A stretch of DNA of 64,000 bases, taken from positions 124,001 to 188,000 of the forward strand of contig NZ_AHWA01000002.1 in assembly GCF_000247645.1 (NCBI RefSeq). The letters run 5' to 3'. This DNA is from Salinibacterium sp. PAMC 21357 (GTDB lineage Bacteria > Actinomycetota > Actinomycetes > Actinomycetales > Microbacteriaceae). Shown here piece after piece: positions 2,543 through 9,308 of the stretch; the stretch's first letter is position 1; each line of letters opens with the position of its first letter. Below the pieces are notes generated by a model. The model was not told the origin of the DNA. It made no database searches and saw only the letters and a program-made list of their open reading frames with translations. Both the position numbers and the translations under genes were made by a program.

Positions 2543-2905
2543 CTACTGCACGACCTCAATCTGCGTTGCGGAGGCCGCATCGCCGATCGAGCCGAGATCA
2601 ATTACATTCTCAAAGCCAGCGTCTTGCATCATTGCGACGGCCTGACCTGAGCGGTTGCCCGATTTGCAGTAGACCGCGTATTCAGCATCCGGGTCGAGAG
2701 TAGGAAGTGCTGCAGCAAATTGGCCACCCGTGAGGTCGAGCAGATTGGCGCCATCAAGGTGGCCTTGCGAATATTCTGCGGGAGTGCGCACGTCAATGAG
2801 GATGGTGTCAGCACTGAGTTCGATCGGATCGCTCGCTGCCGAGCATCCGGCGATCGACGCCAGTACGACGAGGGATCCGGCGAGAGCGGTGAGGGGACGA
2901 AACAT
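2543..2905 (-). CDS. Rhodanese-like lipoprotein
   Basis: A 120-residue exported single-domain sulfurtransferase. A signal peptide ends in the lipobox SIAGC, so the mature protein should be a lipid-anchored outer-face protein. The rhodanese domain covers about 30-115, with DVRTPAEYSQGHLDGA and the active-site loop YCKSGNRSGQ, where the cysteine would carry a persulfide. A strong AAGGAG sits before the ATG. It lies downstream of the TauE/SafE exporter and the CstB-like protein, which suggests extracytoplasmic sulfur transfer in the same module. Maturation needs Lgt and LspA, whose genes are not in the window. Confidence 0.92.
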   Translation of the reverse strand: MFRPLTALAGSLVVLASIAGCSAASDPIELSADTILIDVRTPAEYSQGHLDGANLLDLTGGQFAAALPTLDPDAEYAVYCKSGNRSGQAVAMMQDAGFENVIDLGSIGDAASATQIEVVQ

Positions 2906-2998: not shown

Positions 2999-3787
2999 TC
3001 ACCCTCCTGTCGCGAGGGGGATCAACTGCGGAATTTCTTGCACAAGGACGAAGGCACCAATGACGAGCACGAAGATTCCGAATCCTTTGCGCAGAGCAGT
3101 TTCGGGAATACGGCCAGCGAGGGCTGCGCCGACGAAGGAACCCGCGACGGCGATCGCCGTAAACGCGAGGATGGTGGGCCACGGCAGCTCAACAGTGAAA
3201 AGGTGAGCGGCTAGACCTGCCGACGACTGCATCGCGATGATGAGTAGGGAGGTGCCGATAGCGACAGCAACCGGGAGTCCGCCAAGAAGGGTTAGTGCGG
3301 GAACAATGAGGAATCCGCCTCCAGCGCCGACGAGCCCTGCGGCAATTCCCACGAAGAAGCCGTCGCGAATAATTCGAACGACGGGAAGCTTCGCCGGCTC
3401 GTCAACCGATCCGGCTGGCACCTTTCTGCGGCCGCGGATCATGGCGGTTGCGGTGGCAACCATCATTGCCGCGAAGAGAACCATGAGGATCGTGCCGGGG
3501 ATGAAGCCTCCGACGATACCTCCGGTGAACGCGCCCGCCATCCCGGCGACACCGAAGATCAGGCCAGTGCGCCAGCGCACTCGACCGGCTCGGGCGTGAT
3601 GAAACACGCTCACAGCGCTCGTGACTCCGACGACAAAGAGGGAGGCGGAGATTGCCTGCTGCGGCTCCATCCCGACGACGTAGGTCAGGATGGGCACAGT
3701 GAGAATCGAGCCGCCCCCGCCGAGCATCCCGAGGGAAACGCCCACGAGCACGGCGAGGAACAGCGCGATGATCAGATTCGGCTCCAT
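2999..3787 (-). CDS. TauE/SafE-family sulfite/anion exporter
   Basis: A 262-residue polytopic membrane protein with about eight hydrophobic segments and the two half-repeats of the TauE/SafE (DUF81) family: LGMLGGGGSILTVPILTYV near 20-38 and GLVGAGGGFLIVPALTLLG near 155-173. The family exports sulfite, sulfoacetate or related anions. It begins 9 bases after the CstB-like gene ends, without a strong ribosome binding site, so translation is probably coupled. In CstR-type operons such a protein is expected to remove the sulfite made by persulfide oxidation; this role is inferred from context. Confidence 0.9.
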   Translation of the reverse strand: MEPNLIIALFLAVLVGVSLGMLGGGGSILTVPILTYVVGMEPQQAISASLFVVGVTSAVSVFHHARAGRVRWRTGLIFGVAGMAGAFTGGIVGGFIPGTILMVLFAAMMVATATAMIRGRRKVPAGSVDEPAKLPVVRIIRDGFFVGIAAGLVGAGGGFLIVPALTLLGGLPVAVAIGTSLLIIAMQSSAGLAAHLFTVELPWPTILAFTAIAVAGSFVGAALAGRIPETALRKGFGIFVLVIGAFVLVQEIPQLIPLATGG

Positions 3788-3796
3788 GGTGGCGCG

Positions 3797-5206
3797 CTAG
3801 ACCGCGGGTACGGCACCAGGGGTTGCGAGCCAACTGAGGTAGGAGCCGTCGAGTTCGGCAACGTGATAGCCAGCGCGACGTAGGGCACTCGCGGCCACGC
3901 TGTTACGCACTCCGCTCTGGCAGTACGTCACGATGGTCCCTTCCTTGGGCAGTTGGTCGAGCGACCATAGGACGCGGCCGCCGCTCAGCTGTTGGGCCCC
4001 GGGGATGTGGCCGTCGGCGAACTCTGTCTTGTTGCGAACGTCGAGGAGCATAACTCGGTCGACATCATCGAGCTCGGCAGGGGATACCAACTCGGGCACG
4101 ACGAGGTTGAGGCCGTCGAGGGTACGAACGAATCCGCTGACGGTATCGATGCCGACCCGCACAAGGTGGTTGCGCAATTCCTCGGCGTGCGTGAGATCGC
4201 TTGCCAGCAGGATGACGGGGCGCGTCTCGGTCTCGGGGTTGTAGACCCAAGCACCGTAGCTTGCCGCTTTCTCGGGGCCGGGCACATTGAGTGATCGCGG
4301 CACTGTTCCACGGTGGACCTCGGCGTTGTTGCGAGTGTCGATGAGGATCGCGTTGTCAGCGTCGAGCGCCGCGGCGACCTCTTCGGTCGTGTACTCCTGT
4401 AGGTCAGCGACTGCGCCCATGACCTGCGGGCCCTGACGGTTCTGAATTTTCATTCGGGCGAAGTAGGCGTGTGCATCTGGTTGACCGTTGAGCAGCTCGT
4501 CGATGAAGCCCTGCTCGTCGTTGTTCGCGAGGTAGCGGCTCCACCACGCAAACGCACGTTCGTAGCCGACCGTAGTGGTCGGGATGGCGCCGAGTGCTTT
4601 TCCGCAGGCGCTTCCGGCACCGTGTGCCGGGAGCACCTGCACGTAGTCCGGAAGGCTGAGAAACCGGTCGCGCAGGCTCACGAAGATCTCTTTGGCGCCG
4701 TCAAAACGAGTATCGACACCGCCGGCTGCTTCATCGAGGAGGTCGGGGCGTCCAACGTCGCCAACGAAGACGAAGTCGCCACTGAGCATGAAGCCGGGAG
4801 CGTCCGCCTGAGCGCCGTCGGTCACGAGGAAGGAGAGGTGTTCGGGCGTGTGCCCGGGGGTGTGGACGGCCCGCAGCGTGATGTTGCCGAGGGAGATGGT
4901 GTGATTGTCCTTCATCCGCACCGCGCCATCGAAGGCGCTGCCGTAGGTCCAGTCGGGCCCACCTTCGTCGGATACGAAAATCTGCGCACCCGTGCGGGCG
5001 GCAAGTTCTCGCGTGCCCGACAGGTAATCAGCGTGAATGTGCGTTTCGGTGACGGCCGTGATGGTCATCCCGTTTTTGGCAGCGATTTCACGATAAATGT
5101 CGAGGTCGCGACGGGGGTCAACGACGATCGCTTCGCCCTTGGCTTGGCAACCGATGAAGTAGCTGGCCTGAGCGAGGTCGGTGTCATAAATGCGTTCGAG
5201 AAGCAT
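3797..5206 (-). CDS. CstB-like persulfide dioxygenase: metallo-beta-lactamase fold plus two rhodanese domains
   Basis: A 469-residue protein. The N-terminal metallo-beta-lactamase domain (1-250) has THIHADY (His56, His58, Asp60), HTPGHT near 115-120 and GDVGRPDL from Asp150; the residue that is His in dinuclear relatives is Tyr, consistent with the single-iron ETHE1/CstB group. A first rhodanese domain (about 285-370) has DTRNNAEVHRGTV but no active cysteine, LLASDLTHA standing where the loop should be. The second (about 378-465) has YCQSGVRNS with Cys429. This MBL, inactive-rhodanese, active-rhodanese order is the layout of staphylococcal CstB, which oxidises low-molecular-weight persulfides to thiosulfate. 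AAAGGAG precedes the ATG. Product assignment is by architecture and neighbours. Confidence 0.9.
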   Translation of the reverse strand: MLLERIYDTDLAQASYFIGCQAKGEAIVVDPRRDLDIYREIAAKNGMTITAVTETHIHADYLSGTRELAARTGAQIFVSDEGGPDWTYGSAFDGAVRMKDNHTISLGNITLRAVHTPGHTPEHLSFLVTDGAQADAPGFMLSGDFVFVGDVGRPDLLDEAAGGVDTRFDGAKEIFVSLRDRFLSLPDYVQVLPAHGAGSACGKALGAIPTTTVGYERAFAWWSRYLANNDEQGFIDELLNGQPDAHAYFARMKIQNRQGPQVMGAVADLQEYTTEEVAAALDADNAILIDTRNNAEVHRGTVPRSLNVPGPEKAASYGAWVYNPETETRPVILLASDLTHAEELRNHLVRVGIDTVSGFVRTLDGLNLVVPELVSPAELDDVDRVMLLDVRNKTEFADGHIPGAQQLSGGRVLWSLDQLPKEGTIVTYCQSGVRNSVAASALRRAGYHVAELDGSYLSWLATPGAVPAV

Positions 5207-5285
5207 TATTACTCCTTTGAGTGAAGGCTATGTCCGGGGGGAGGAAGGGGGGTAACGACGGTGTCGGGTCCCCAGCGCGACGAAG

Positions 5286-5319
5286 TAGCGGTGGTGCTGG
5301 GTTAGCGGTGGTGCTGAGT
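5286..5319. repeat. 17-bp direct repeat, two copies
   Basis: Two adjacent 17-bp units, TAGCGGTGGTGCTGGGT at 5286-5302 and TAGCGGTGGTGCTGAGT at 5303-5319, one mismatch apart, followed by TAGC. They lie just downstream of the 37-residue cysteine-rich gene (read on the minus strand) and before the CstB-like gene. No hairpin with a T-run is seen; function unknown. Confidence 0.75.
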
Positions 5320-5432
5320 TAGCAGGTGCAACGGTCGCGTTCGGCGACGTTCGCAAGGGCATCCTCGATATGTTCTCCGCAGCCAGCCCAGGTGGGTTTA
5401 CCGCAGTTCTGGCAGGTGACTTGTGCGCACAT
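5319..5432 (-). CDS. Small cysteine-rich protein, 37 residues (paralogue of the neighbour)
   Basis: A short gene easily missed by gene finders. It reads MCAQVTCQNCGKPTWAGC then GEHIEDALANVAERDRCTC. It has a good ribosome binding site (AGGAG five bases before the ATG) and sits eight bases after the end of the 61-residue gene, with which it shares the pattern MC-x2-VTC-x2-CGK-x-TWAGCG-x-HI. Seven cysteines in 37 residues suggest metal binding or thiol chemistry, with a C-terminal CTC as an extra pair. It lies in the putative CstR-controlled sulfur operon. I recognise no named function; a zinc ribbon-like fold or persulfide carrier are guesses from composition and context. Confidence 0.85.
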   Translation of the reverse strand: MCAQVTCQNCGKPTWAGCGEHIEDALANVAERDRCTC

Positions 5433-5440
5433 GTGGTCTC

Positions 5441-5626
5441 CTAACGACCGAAGAGGCGGGCAAAGAAGCCGCCTTTATTGGATTTGGCGGCGTCAATCTC
5501 TGACTGAGTGTGTTTGCCGTTGCACCAGTTGGATGCGGGCACACTGCGCTTGATGGACTGGATGTGGTCTCCGCATCCGGCCCACGTTGTTTTCCCGCAT
5601 ACGCGGCACGTGACTGCTCTGCACAT
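5441..5626 (-). CDS. Small cysteine-rich protein, 61 residues
   Basis: First gene of the minus-strand sulfur operon. The N-terminal third, MCRAVTCRVCGKTTWAGCG, has cysteines in a C-x4-C-x2-C-x7-C spacing; a further cysteine lies in NWCNGK, and the tail ends in a basic, aromatic GGFFARLFGR that may be a docking or membrane-contact helix. A weak AGAG precedes the ATG. The next gene encodes a shorter paralogue sharing the core. Both lie directly downstream of the two CsoR/CstR-type palindromes. The family is, as far as I know, uncharacterised; a role in handling sulfane sulfur or metal is inferred only from cysteines and neighbours. Confidence 0.85.
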   Translation of the reverse strand: MCRAVTCRVCGKTTWAGCGDHIQSIKRSVPASNWCNGKHTQSEIDAAKSNKGGFFARLFGR

Positions 5627-5660
5627 AACTCTGCTTTCGATCGACTGACTGTACGAATTT

Positions 5661-5676
5661 ATACCCTAGGGGGTAT
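5661..5676. promoter_or_regulatory. Putative CstR/CsoR operator 1
   Basis: ATACCCTAGGGGGTAT is an inverted repeat with ATACCC and GGGTAT arms. CsoR-family operators have this G-tract plus A/T-flank form. It lies between the divergent cysteine-rich gene (start 5626) and the repressor gene (start 5766), so it could control both. Confidence 0.75.
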
Positions 5677-5685
5677 GATGAGACT

Positions 5686-5701
5686 ATACCCCACGGGGTA
5701 T
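5686..5701. promoter_or_regulatory. Putative CstR/CsoR operator 2
   Basis: ATACCCCACGGGGTAT is a palindrome with perfect seven-base arms around a central AC. Its centre is 25 bases from that of operator 1. Two sites suggest binding of two tetramers and tight autoregulated control of the divergent sulfur operon. Confidence 0.8.
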
Positions 5702-5765
5702 CCAAACTGTCAAATCGCACGCGAGACACCCAAGACGCCCGAGACACGAGAGAAACGAGAGAACT

Positions 5766-6056
5766 ATGGTTCCCCAGGCAGCCGAAGCATCGATGCTCAC
5801 TGATGCTGAGACGCAAAAGAAGATTGCGAACCGCCTGCGTCGTGCACAAGGACAATTGGGGGCACTCATCACCACGGTAGAAAGCGGTGCAGGATGCCGT
5901 GACGTAGTGCACCAACTGTCCGCGGTGTCGAAAGCGCTAGACCGGGCGGGGTTCCTCGTCATCTCTCAAGCGATGAGGGAATGCCTCATCAACCCGGATG
6001 CTGAAGGCTCGCCTCAGTCAGAGGAGATCGAGAAACTCTTCCTGTCTCTCGCGTGA
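5766..6056 (+). CDS. CsoR-family repressor, probable persulfide sensor (CstR-like)
   Basis: A 96-residue all-helical DUF156 repressor. The family motif is clear: NRLRRAQGQLGALI at 22-35, Cys44 in GAGCRDVV, and Cys73 in MRECL. Aligned to M. tuberculosis CsoR (Cys36, His61, Cys65), the two cysteines are kept but the histidine position is Ala69, so the copper site is incomplete. Sensors with the cysteine pair but no histidine, such as S. aureus CstR, form di-, tri- or tetrasulfide cross-links with persulfides and release DNA. The gene faces the CstB-like operon across two matching palindromes, which supports that role. A second Met at residue 10 is an alternative start. Confidence 0.92.
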   Translation: MVPQAAEASMLTDAETQKKIANRLRRAQGQLGALITTVESGAGCRDVVHQLSAVSKALDRAGFLVISQAMRECLINPDAEGSPQSEEIEKLFLSLA

Positions 6057-6059
6057 TCG

Positions 6060-6707
6060 CTAGGAGGGGCTGGCAGCAAGGATGAGGCGTGCGAGCTCGA
6101 GGATCGGTCCGCGTAGCGCTGTGGTGAGAATCGCGAAGACCAAGATGTTGAGCACAACGGTGCCCCAGAAGGCTTGCCGAAAAGAAACCTTCTGCGTTTT
6201 GTGGCGCAGGCGTTGCTGGGCGACAAGCGCTCCGGGCCAGCCGCCAAAGAGTCCCAAGCCGAGCAGGGCGCTTTCTGTCACGCGCCATTGCTTTGTCTGC
6301 GCAGCCTTTTTATCGGCGGCATAGGCGCCATAGGTGATGAGGCTCATCAGCAGATAGAGCGCGGCAAATAACCACGGGAGTGCACCAATCGCGGTGACGA
6401 TGCCGATCGCGACGGCGAAGGTCACTAAGACTACGTAGCTCATACCTCCGGGGCGGCTTTTGCGCGTGCGGAGCGGCCTGCCTGAGGCCGCGAGATAGCG
6501 AATGTTGCGAGCCCGCACTTTGTCTTCGTTCGTGCGTTCAACGGCGAAGCTGAGTCGTTCACCGGGCGCCGGGCGGGCGTCACGGGGAGGGAATGCTGAA
6601 ATGTGGGCGAAAATTCGCTCACCGTCATCGAGGGTGACGAAACCGAACCCGCGTTCATCGTTCCACGATGCTAAGACGCCTTCACTGCGTGTGCGTCGCG
6701 AACTCAT
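6060..6707 (-). CDS. Cold-shock domain plus DUF1294 membrane protein
   Basis: A 215-residue protein converging on the repressor gene with only three bases between the stops. Residues 1-65 form a cold-shock (CSD) domain with the RNA-binding pattern GFGFVTLDDGERIFAHISAF; three hydrophobic segments follow, covering a DUF1294 domain with the conserved AADKKAAQTKQWRVTE and GGWPGALVAQQRLRHKTQK. The fusion is common in bacteria, but its job is unknown. The ATG at 6707 was chosen because cold-shock homologues begin at this point; the frame stays open upstream to 6746. Confidence 0.88.
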   Translation of the reverse strand: MSSRRTRSEGVLASWNDERGFGFVTLDDGERIFAHISAFPPRDARPAPGERLSFAVERTNEDKVRARNIRYLAASGRPLRTRKSRPGGMSYVVLVTFAVAIGIVTAIGALPWLFAALYLLMSLITYGAYAADKKAAQTKQWRVTESALLGLGLFGGWPGALVAQQRLRHKTQKVSFRQAFWGTVVLNILVFAILTTALRGPILELARLILAASPS

Positions 6708-6884
6708 ACTCCGAGGGTAACCTGCGCACCGTGCTGGCTCGGCCACGGCATACCCATCGATGCGCTGTGATCTACGGCAATGCAGTGAATGCTCCTACAC
6801 TGAGCGAACAAGCTCCTTGACGAGCGCGACCTCAACGTACGGATCATCCAGCACCATCCATCGCGATCACAGACAGGAAACCTC

Positions 6885-9308
6885 GTGACTGTTGCCCCTT
6901 CGTCCCCCCGAACCCCTTGGTGCTCACCCCGAACGGATGAAATTGAGGCTGAGACTTTCGACCAGCTGGATGCGTGGTGGCGGGCAGCGAATTATCTTGC
7001 GGTTGGTCAGATTTATCTGCTCGATAACCCCTTGCTGCGCGAGCCACTCCGCCGCGAGCACACCAAACCGCGACTTTTGGGGCACTGGGGCACGACACCC
7101 GGCCTCAACTTCGTCTGGGCGCACCTCAATCGCATCATTCGCGAGCGCGACACAGACACGATTTTCGTCGCCGGGCCCGGGCATGGCGGGCCAGCGGTCG
7201 TCGCAAGCGCGTACCTCGATGGCACCTACAGCGAAACGTACGGCGACATCGATAAGAGCGCGGATGGCATCCGCAAGCTCTTTAGGCAGTTCTCTTTTCC
7301 TGGCGGTATTCCGAGTCACGCGGCCCCCGAAACTCCGGGTTCGATCCATGAGGGTGGCGAGCTCGGCTACGCGCTGTCGCACGCCTACGGTGCAGCGTTT
7401 GATAACCCGAACCTTCTCGTGGCGGCGGTCGTGGGCGATGGGGAGGCCGAAACCGGGCCGCTAGCAACGAGCTGGCACTCGAACAAATTCATCGATCCCG
7501 AGCGTGATGGTGTTGTTCTGCCGATTCTGCACCTCAACGGCTACAAGATTGCCAACCCCACGGTGCTGTCGCGCATCCCCGAAGACGAACTGTGCGACCT
7601 CATGCGTGGCTATGGTCATACGCCCTACGTCGTCTCCGGCGGATTCGACAATGAAGACCCGCGCGCTGTGCATGAGCGCATGGCCGCGACTCTCGATGAC
7701 ATCGTCGATCACATCGCGCGAATCAAAGCGGATGCAGCAGCAGGAACGCTCGAGGAGCGCCCGGCCTGGCCGATGCTAATTTTGCGCACGCCCAAGGGCT
7801 GGACGGGACCTCAAGTGGTCGACGGCCATCCCGTCGAAAATAACTGGCGTTCGCATCAGGTGCCTCTCGCAAGTGTGCGTGACACCGAGGAGCATTTGCG
7901 GCAGCTTGAGGAGTGGATGGCGTCCTACCGTCCCGAAGAACTGTTTGACGAGAGCGGTGCACCGCGCGCGCTGACCACAGCGCTCGCGCCGACGGGCGAT
8001 CGCCGCATGAGCGCCAACCCGGTGACCAATGGTGGTCTGCTGCGAGCACCGCTGCGGCTGCCCGACTTTCGGGACTACGCCGTTGACGTTCCGAATCCTG
8101 GTGAAACAACGAGCTCGGCAACGGGCGCGCTGGGGGAGTGGCTGCGCGATGTGGTGCGCGACAATCCCGACAACTTCCGTATCTTTGGGGCCGACGTCAC
8201 GGCATCCAATCGACTGAGTGCTGTGTTCGATGTGACCGATAAGCAGTGGGATGCCGGATTTCTCCCAATCGACTCCGACAATCATCTTGCTCGTGCGGGG
8301 CGCGTAATGGAGATGCTCAGCGAACACCAGTGTCAGGGCTGGCTCGAGGGGTATCTTCTCACCGGTCGCCACGGCATGTTCAATTCGTACGAGGCGTTCA
8401 TTCATATCGTCGACTCGATGTTCAATCAGCACGCCAAGTGGTTGGAAGGCGCAAACGCGATTCCGTGGCGTCGACCAGTGGCGTCGCTCAACTATCTGTT
8501 GAGCTCGCACGTCTGGCGTCAAGACCACAACGGTGCCTCGCATCAAGACCCCGGCTTCTTGGACCTGGTCATGAACAAAAAGCCCGATGTGGTGCGCGCC
8601 TATCTACCGTGTGATGCCAACACCCTGATTGCTACCTACGACCACTGCCTTCGCTCTGTCGACAAAATCAATGTCGTCATCGCCGGCAAGCATCCCGAAA
8701 ACAACTGGCTCGATATGCCGGCGGCCATCGAGCACTGCACGCGCGGCATCGGCCTGTTCGACTGGGCAGGCACCGAAGTTGTTGGTCTGGAACCGGATGT
8801 CGTGCTCGCCTGTGCCGGCGACGTTCCGACCTTAGAGGTGCTGGCTGCCGCGCAAATCTTGCGCGAGCGGATCCCCGAGTTGCGCGTGCGAGTCGTCAAC
8901 GTAATCGACCTGATGCGGTTGCACAGCGAGTCTGAGCATCCGCACGGTCTTAGCGATGCCGAATACGATGCGATTTTCACGACCGACAAACCGGTGATCT
9001 TTGCGCACCACGGTTACCCCTGGTTGATTCATCGCCTCACCTACAAGCGCGCTGGCCATGCCAACCTGCACGTGAGGGGCTACAAAGACGAGGGCACAAC
9101 GACGACACCGTTCGACATGGTGATGCTCAACGACCTCGATCGGTATCATCTGGTTATCGACGTGCTTGAACGTGTTCCTGGTCTAACCTCGCGGCACGCC
9201 GCGTTCTGGCAAGAGATGCATGACACTCGACTTCACGCGCAGCAGTACACGCGGGAGCACGGCGAAGATATGCCATCAGTGGCTGATTGGAAGTGGAAGT
9301 CGGTATGA
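6885..9308 (+). CDS. xfp: Xylulose-5-phosphate/fructose-6-phosphate phosphoketolase
   Basis: An 807-residue thiamine diphosphate enzyme, full length for the family. It splits xylulose 5-phosphate (and often fructose 6-phosphate) with phosphate into acetyl phosphate plus glyceraldehyde 3-phosphate or erythrose 4-phosphate. Visible marks are [11 protein letters not shown] near 65-75, AGPGHGGP near 97-103, [19 protein letters not shown], the ThDP/metal motif GDGEAETGP near 185, and HQDPGF in the second domain. The GTG start is preceded by CAGGAAA. Unlike many phosphoketolase loci, no acetate kinase or phosphotransacetylase gene is adjacent; instead a DUF1349 gene overlaps its stop. The region 6708-6884 upstream holds only an unassigned promoter. 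Confidence 0.96.

Follow-up and report, generated by a model that had tools for sequence, protein, structure and literature searches.

The cst cluster of S. aureus is a CstR/CsoR-controlled persulfide detoxification cluster, and sulfane-sulfur detoxification has been described as the work of a sensor, a dioxygenase, a sulfurtransferase and an exporter. In Streptomyces coelicolor, the sulfane-sulfur-sensing repressor ScCsoR represses the genes for a persulfide dioxygenase, a rhodanese and a sulfite transporter, and ATACCn6GGTAT is the segment identified for it, as stated in the parts of that report drawn on here (PMC7533328). The locus described in this study lies in a window of 64,000 nucleotides, which is the whole stretch of Salinibacterium sp. 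PAMC 21357 DNA that we analysed. On its minus strand, a gene for a 61-aa Cys-rich protein (long form, 5441..5626) is followed by one for a 37-aa Cys-rich protein (short form, second cistron, 5319..5432), and then by the genes for a CstB-like persulfide dioxygenase (3797..5206), a TauE/SafE sulfite exporter (2999..3787; PF01925, 4.9e-49) and a single-domain rhodanese (2543..2905; PF00581, 4.8e-14). A gene for a CstR-like regulator of the CsoR family (5766..6056) runs divergently on the plus strand. By Pfam, the product of 3797..5206 has a metallo-beta-lactamase (MBL) domain and then rhodanese domains, and it aligns with 3tp9 (2e-104) and 3r2u (1e-87) over nearly its whole length. The first-pass annotation of this DNA had put the small-gene pair ahead of a CstB-like persulfide dioxygenase at the head of a sulfur operon, and we confirm both points, since the next gene encodes the MBL-rhodanese protein and the exporter and rhodanese genes follow it. 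The single-domain rhodanese has a lipoprotein-like N-terminus with a lipobox-like LASIAGC, and may therefore act outside the membrane. At 6060-6746 the window encodes a cold-shock domain fused to DUF1294.

The two small open reading frames lie on the minus strand where they had been reported, separated by a gap of 8 nt, and their products have in common the core MC-x4-C-x2-CGK-x-TWAGCG-x-HI. The candidate metal ligands are C2, C7, C10, C18, H21, C35 and H39 in the 61-aa protein, which then continues into a C-terminal tail, and C2, C7, C10, C18, H21, C35 and C37 in the 37-aa protein. The cysteines thus number five and six, and not five to seven as first counted, but the earlier observation that an Arg/Phe-rich tail is limited to the longer copy is borne out. 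In eight same-genus loci (the window and L252-L258) the genes are under purifying selection, with pN/pS of 0.193 for the 61-aa gene and 0.163 for the 37-aa gene, and the tandem arrangement is kept in 8/8, the gene starts being 194 or 195 nt apart. Together with the place of the long form in an alignment of 125 members and of the short form in a short-form clade, both described below, these results indicate that the two genes are real and coding. No sigma-70-like promoter was found at 5200-5800 of the window. A third match in the same genome (C1:313106, E 0.009) was not counted as a member; it contains one stop, and the member expression finds nothing in the surrounding 7 kb.

The divergent regulator scores above the Pfam cut-off (PF02583, 2.5e-20), and phmmer finds InrS, 7mq3 and 7mq1 as its relatives. 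In copper CsoRs a His stands four residues ahead of the second Cys, and in our alignment with these proteins the copper-ligand His of InrS is seen at that position. The window CsoR keeps both Cys and has Ala at the position of the His, where 7mq1, which we take to be CstR (its PDB name is csoR), has Asn. Two exact matches to ATACCn6GGTAT, ATACCCTAGGGGGTAT at 5661..5676 and ATACCCCACGGGGTAT at 5686..5701, lie between the divergent starts, where they begin 75 and 50 nt ahead of the 61-aa gene. Two such sites exceed chance, with 0.02 expected in the window and 0/100 shuffles reaching two. It had been proposed that both small genes face palindromes; this is so for the 61-aa gene, but there is none in the 8-nt gap before the 37-aa gene. 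Two exact operators upstream of the 61-aa gene are found in 8/8 of the same-genus loci, and six further same-genus loci (L259-L264) each have one long form with an exact operator 46-72 nt upstream (6/6), while a same-family locus with a long and short pair (L265) is without an exact operator within 120 bp. These features, with the His-less CsoR next to the two operators, agree with the CstR-type control first proposed, and judged by sequence the window pair very probably belongs to a CstR-type regulon.

The exact operator occurs at only four places in the 3.1-Mb genome, two at this locus and two elsewhere. One of the latter (position 3662 of L307, G000:C3:661000-671000) belongs to a second CstR-type operon with genes for a CoA-disulfide-reductase-like flavoprotein with a rhodanese domain, a rhodanese and a His-less CsoR. 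The other (position 3720 of L308, G000:C5:3500-11500) overlaps the region where a SHOCT-like ORF, itself below the Pfam cut-off and followed by a multicopper oxidase, is predicted to start. This last site hints that copper and sulfur CsoRs may share an operator sequence within one genome, so that the operator alone cannot tell sulfur from copper.

Neither small protein belongs to a family that we could name, in line with the first-pass annotation, which knew no described function for it. There is no significant match in Pfam (best E 0.77 for the 37-aa and 0.12 for the 61-aa protein), no match above cut-off in NCBIfam (best E 0.074 for the 37-aa protein, none for the 61-aa protein), nothing significant in PHROGs (best E 0.94 and 0.74, respectively) and no significant sequence match among solved structures in the PDB; nor is there a metallothionein profile among the Pfam or NCBIfam matches of either. 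Among the best-ranked literature matches, no work on the family was recognised by title or abstract start, and a text search for TWAGCG gave nothing on the family, its match being by title a malaria paper. The family is nevertheless widespread. A profile finds it in 48/396 Actinomycetota genomes, own included (E 0.001). A strict DNA pattern, which fixes CGK-x-TW-x-GCG-x-H, matches 20/60 genomes, own included, an undercount because some members carry CRK, CSK or CNK. In the GTDB species set the same pattern matches at least 119 stretches, and among the 119 matches listed all but two are actinobacterial as titled, the exceptions being a Thermoflexus MAG (L047) and an Acidobacteria MAG (L067). 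On plasmids it is present in 75 records, 34 of Rhodococcus and 16 of Clavibacter; the annotated plasmid homologues that we looked at are called 'hypothetical protein', and most of the listed plasmid copies have no gene in the PLSDB gene table, which is incomplete. A phage origin was rejected, as exact pattern matches in viral contigs number 0 and the sole 'phage' record holds a CsoR-dioxygenase-TauE-rhodanese locus. In that record (L010; MT835623.1, 'Bacteriophage sp.') the CsoR, TauE, dioxygenase, rhodanese and small-protein locus stands beside integrase- and transposase-like ORFs, and it looks like bacterial or mobile-element DNA. The family is real, unnamed, widely conserved and common in Actinomycetota.

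The association with the regulator extends to the family as a whole. By the Pfam CsoR model in whole genomes, a CsoR lies within 5 kb of 25/55 family genes (21/48 genomes), with 0.28 expected. The 48 family genomes hold 78 CsoRs, 23 of them no more than 5 kb from a family gene and 55 distant. The copper His is present in 0/22 readable neighbouring CsoRs of these genomes and in 0/48 readable CsoRs neighbouring a family gene in the 119 pattern stretches listed (73 in both sets together, three of them unreadable). The 55 distant CsoRs comprise 37 with the His, 13 His-less ones (Gly, Ala, Ser), three with Asp or Glu and two unreadable, so that 37/53 readable ones have it. The small gene is thus found beside CsoRs of the His-less, sulfur-sensing type. 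A copper-type CsoR as the neighbouring regulator was rejected on the same ground. Several genomes in which no CsoR lies near the family gene, G037, G308, G340 and G381 among them, encode a His-less one at another place, which is what control in trans would need. The exact operator is found within 250 bp upstream of 61/179 family genes and 0 times in 646 kb of control DNA, and it precedes 40/115 genes with sulfur neighbours and 21/64 genes without; the second gene of a pair was counted as well, and a gene needed 150 bp or more of upstream sequence to be scored.

When a locus is called linked if it has a sulfur-family neighbour within about 8 kb or an operator with at most one mismatch within 300 bp, 30/53 loci in the phylum sample and 100/119 of the pattern stretches listed are linked, and 3/53 and 21/119, respectively, have the operator but no sulfur neighbour. 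Wide occurrence of the pattern without sulfur genes, named in advance as evidence against the link, is indeed seen in part, as 23/53 loci in the phylum sample (19/119 among the pattern stretches listed) are unlinked and 9/48 family genomes have no CsoR gene at E 1e-5, many of them incomplete MAGs. Some of the links are also due to chance, because 6/40 control stretches carry one of the eight neighbour families. The HMMs of these eight families were built from the pattern stretches (L040-L158), towards which counts there lean, and the independent test compares the 53 phylum-sample loci (L159-L211) with 40 control stretches from the same genomes (L212-L251). With every ORF counted only for the family that it fits best, CsoR is found in 23/53 family loci versus 0/40 controls (p 2e-7), TauE in 8/53 versus 0/40 (p 0.009) and DUF302 in 6/53 versus 0/40 (p 0.035), and any of the eight families in 27/53 versus 6/40 (p 4e-4). 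Dioxygenase (7 versus 2), CoA-disulfide reductase (CoADR; 9 versus 2), rhodanese (5 versus 1), thioredoxin (5 versus 1) and MMPL (7 versus 1) are not significant singly in the same comparison. Each HMM counted alone gives 16 versus 2 for dioxygenase, 17 versus 2 for CoADR and 16 versus 1 for rhodanese, larger counts that arise because rhodanese domains are common to these three families. It is as a class, rather than as one settled enzyme, that rhodanese-domain proteins are enriched near family genes.

A clustering of the ORFs within 3 kb, in which families were not chosen beforehand, gives 11 clusters of at least five loci in the 119 pattern stretches listed. The largest are CsoR (42 loci), a rhodanese-domain cluster (35 loci, by HMM label CoADR-like in 23, dioxygenase in 8 and rhodanese in 5) and a thioredoxin-like cluster (25 loci, 23 of them so labelled by HMM), followed by TauE (18), dioxygenase (14), a second rhodanese (13) and DUF302 (12). 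MMPL and an ABC-ATPase-like cluster have seven loci each, and two others correspond to the small gene, in sense or antisense. No telling neighbour is common to the 66 loci that lack sulfur families, their largest clusters being an SDR-like and an unnamed one of 10 loci each and the rest small and unnamed. At the genome level, co-occurrence with the dioxygenase is not significant (16/48 genomes with the family versus 75/348 without, p 0.10, E 1e-50); this count is a lower bound, because only four candidates were scored per genome and at least one dioxygenase-like ORF, seen beside a family gene in G053 (L161), was missed. We conclude that the small protein plays an accessory part in the regulon and is no obligate partner of the dioxygenase, and that, as far as gene neighbourhoods and operator sequences can tell, the family is tied to a sulfane-sulfur regulon, with strong statistics for the regulator and the operator, but not everywhere.

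The conservation of the protein points to a metal site. Of 182 members found, 181 distinct ones were counted and 140 were picked below 82% identity, and the alignment of 125 consists of the two window copies and 123 locus members. Its invariant positions are M1, C2, C7, C10, G17, C18, G19, H21 and C35, among which C2, C7, C10, G17, C18 and H21 are fixed by the member expression itself, while C35 is free in both the expression and the DNA pattern; all 53 profile-found loci held a member that passes the expression. T14 and W15 are nearly invariant. The last ligand takes the form CxC in 100/181 members, CxxH in 72/181 and CxxxH in 9/181, and a position that can be either Cys or His behaves as a metal ligand does. 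In the predicted models (pLDDT 82 and 84, pTM 0.55 and 0.49), a hairpin of residues 3-6 and 13-16 holds the CxxC turn, and a helix starts from residue 22, directly after C18-x2-H21. This modelled secondary structure, a CxxC in a hairpin with a ligand pair at the start of a helix, would suit a treble-clef-like zinc site. Proteins of this family thus probably bind zinc or another metal. The seven fixed ligands look structural, and no single Cys stands out as reactive. Met1 is usually removed before small residues, in which case Cys2 would become the first residue.

The long form differs from the short one in its tail, GGFFARLFGR in the window protein (codons 5444..5473, minus strand). The membrane-targeting sequence of E. 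coli MinD is given as KGFLKRLFGG in the part of the source used here (PMC5471200), and the two are alike in a basic, amphipathic C-terminal G-F-F/L-x-R/K-L-F-G. They are unlike in that the tail here is attached to a Cys-rich mini-protein, and the likeness is one of sequence alone. The pattern [FWLIMY][FLIMWYV]x[RKS][LIMFVW][FLWIRMV] ends 90/130 long forms (>48 aa), against a mean of 1.2 and at most 5 after 500 shuffles of the same 130. The last ten residues of the long forms have a mean hydrophobic moment with z 6.2 over shuffles and a mean charge of +2.5, and the tail is modelled as coil with pLDDT 53-63. Whether it would act as a membrane tail we regard as evenly balanced. Several genera have long and short copies in close proximity (L050, L052, L093, L142, L149 and L265). 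In seven long/short pairs compared over their first 35 residues, mean identity is 67% between long forms, 62% between short forms and 54% across types, with 49-63% within a pair, and the short copies form one clade (support 0.965, at most 37 columns). The copies group by type and not by genome, and the duplication therefore probably predates these genera. The pair had first been read as a duplication; a simple recent local one is rejected, because the two forms co-occur in several genera and cluster by type across them. The pairs are not always long and short: at L163 (G097), two long forms (5748-5909 and 8001-8162) flank a CsoR/CoADR locus.

What these proteins do for the regulon is a matter of proposal. 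In the scheme that we put forward, a rise in persulfide or polysulfide would cause the CstR-type repressor to leave both operators, and the small proteins would be made together with the persulfide dioxygenase, the sulfite exporter and the rhodanese. Each protein would fold round zinc through a C7-x2-C10 knuckle in the hairpin and C18-x2-H21 at the helix start, with C2, C35 and the Cys or His at 37-39 as further ligands. The zinc-bound thiolates could take up and give back sulfane sulfur as a buffer, and might hand it on to a rhodanese, dioxygenase, thioredoxin or CoA-disulfide reductase as partner. In this scheme the long form would work at the membrane through its amphipathic tail, and the short form would be soluble. 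The metal identity, the membrane docking, the sulfur uptake and the partners are what we infer here. Storage or transfer of sulfane sulfur by the small proteins seems possible rather than probable, and the proposal as a whole, a CstR-regulated zinc protein by which sulfane sulfur is stored or handed on, its long form being at the membrane, is put forward tentatively, with slightly more assurance than that single function. We keep this overall estimate despite the weak enzyme-by-enzyme counts, since the evidence from CsoRs, operators and ligands still holds.

The main rival is that the proteins are zinc-finger adaptors, scaffolds whose Cys hold zinc and never sulfur. The long form would anchor a partner, for instance the dioxygenase or CoA-disulfide reductase, at the membrane, and the short form would tune it. 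All the ligands being fixed, with only the last exchangeable between Cys and His, would fit such a role, as would the conserved amphipathic tail of the long forms and a rhodanese-domain cluster at a median distance of 31 bp and on the same strand in 29/36 cases. However, the neighbouring enzymes vary by locus (dioxygenase, CoADR, MMPL, thioredoxin), so that no single partner fits, and the loci with the operator yet no sulfur neighbour (3/53 and 21/119 of those listed) do not suit an adaptor, which we consider unlikely though a serious competitor. Another possibility is zinc repair or reserve, in which zinc is lost by stripping or precipitation when persulfide and sulfide are present, and the protein keeps a store of it in sulfur stress without handling sulfur. 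The metallothionein-like ligand density within 37 residues and the neighbours and operator of a sulfur regulon speak for it, but no zinc transporter or regulator was recognised among the recurrent neighbour clusters, several of which are unnamed, and we think it improbable. More improbable still is a copper protein that sequesters Cu(I) under a copper-sensing CsoR. The CsoR family and operator type are in common, the operator also precedes a multicopper oxidase in this genome, and members with the operator but no nearby CsoR could be under a copper CsoR; against this, the His is present in 0/70 readable neighbouring CsoRs versus 37/53 readable distant ones, and no copper gene family was recognised among the recurrent neighbour clusters (several again unnamed). 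A spurious pair or a leader without coding function, as the shortness of the genes and the plasmid copies listed without an annotated gene in the incomplete PLSDB gene table might suggest, is hardly credible with pN/pS of 0.19 and 0.16 and ligands invariant across 125 aligned members.

Several known systems offer a comparison. The TIGR04129 / YyzF (CxxH/CxxC) family is also one of tiny Cys/His proteins, but its match to the 37-aa protein is weak (ten residues, E 0.074, 13.3 bits, below the curated cut-off of 35), and it does not match the 61-aa protein. The ScCsoR cluster of S. coelicolor is alike in the kind of regulator, the operator ATACCn6GGTAT, the dioxygenase, the rhodanese and the sulfite exporter; it is unlike in being described, in the parts of the account drawn on, as four genes without a small Cys-rich protein (PMC7533328). 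The Antarctic Arthrobacter plasmids pA8H1, pA40H2 and pA58H2 carry a SUL module, and the account of it, as far as it is used here, gives the family member no name, family, function or regulation (PMC6305408). On pA58H2 (L009), we find that this member adjoins CsoR, dioxygenase, two rhodaneses, TauE, MFS and DUF302. New in this study, then, is a conserved, very small and probably metal-binding component that is absent from the family libraries searched, and it offers direct handles: the operator and the class of inducer are both known, one of its two natural forms has a membrane-like tail and the other lacks it, and some copies are borne on plasmids. If sulfane sulfur is indeed stored on its zinc, zinc and reactive-sulfur homeostasis would be linked in bacteria. 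Such a link has a counterpart in mouse metallothionein-3, in which, in the portion of the work cited, zinc is held through persulfide sulfur and thioredoxin regenerates the protein (PMC12618007). The two are alike in being small and Cys-dense and would work alike, with zinc held via Cys and persulfide, but the likeness is one of working only, and no sequence relation is claimed. We speculate, with little confidence, that the family is a bacterial counterpart of such a zinc/sulfane-sulfur metallothionein, with membrane-docked and soluble forms under a persulfide sensor, sulfur being stored on zinc-bound Cys, perhaps including the N-terminal Cys after removal of Met1, and handed to rhodanese, dioxygenase or thioredoxin; if so, this would be the first function for a family spread through Actinomycetota.
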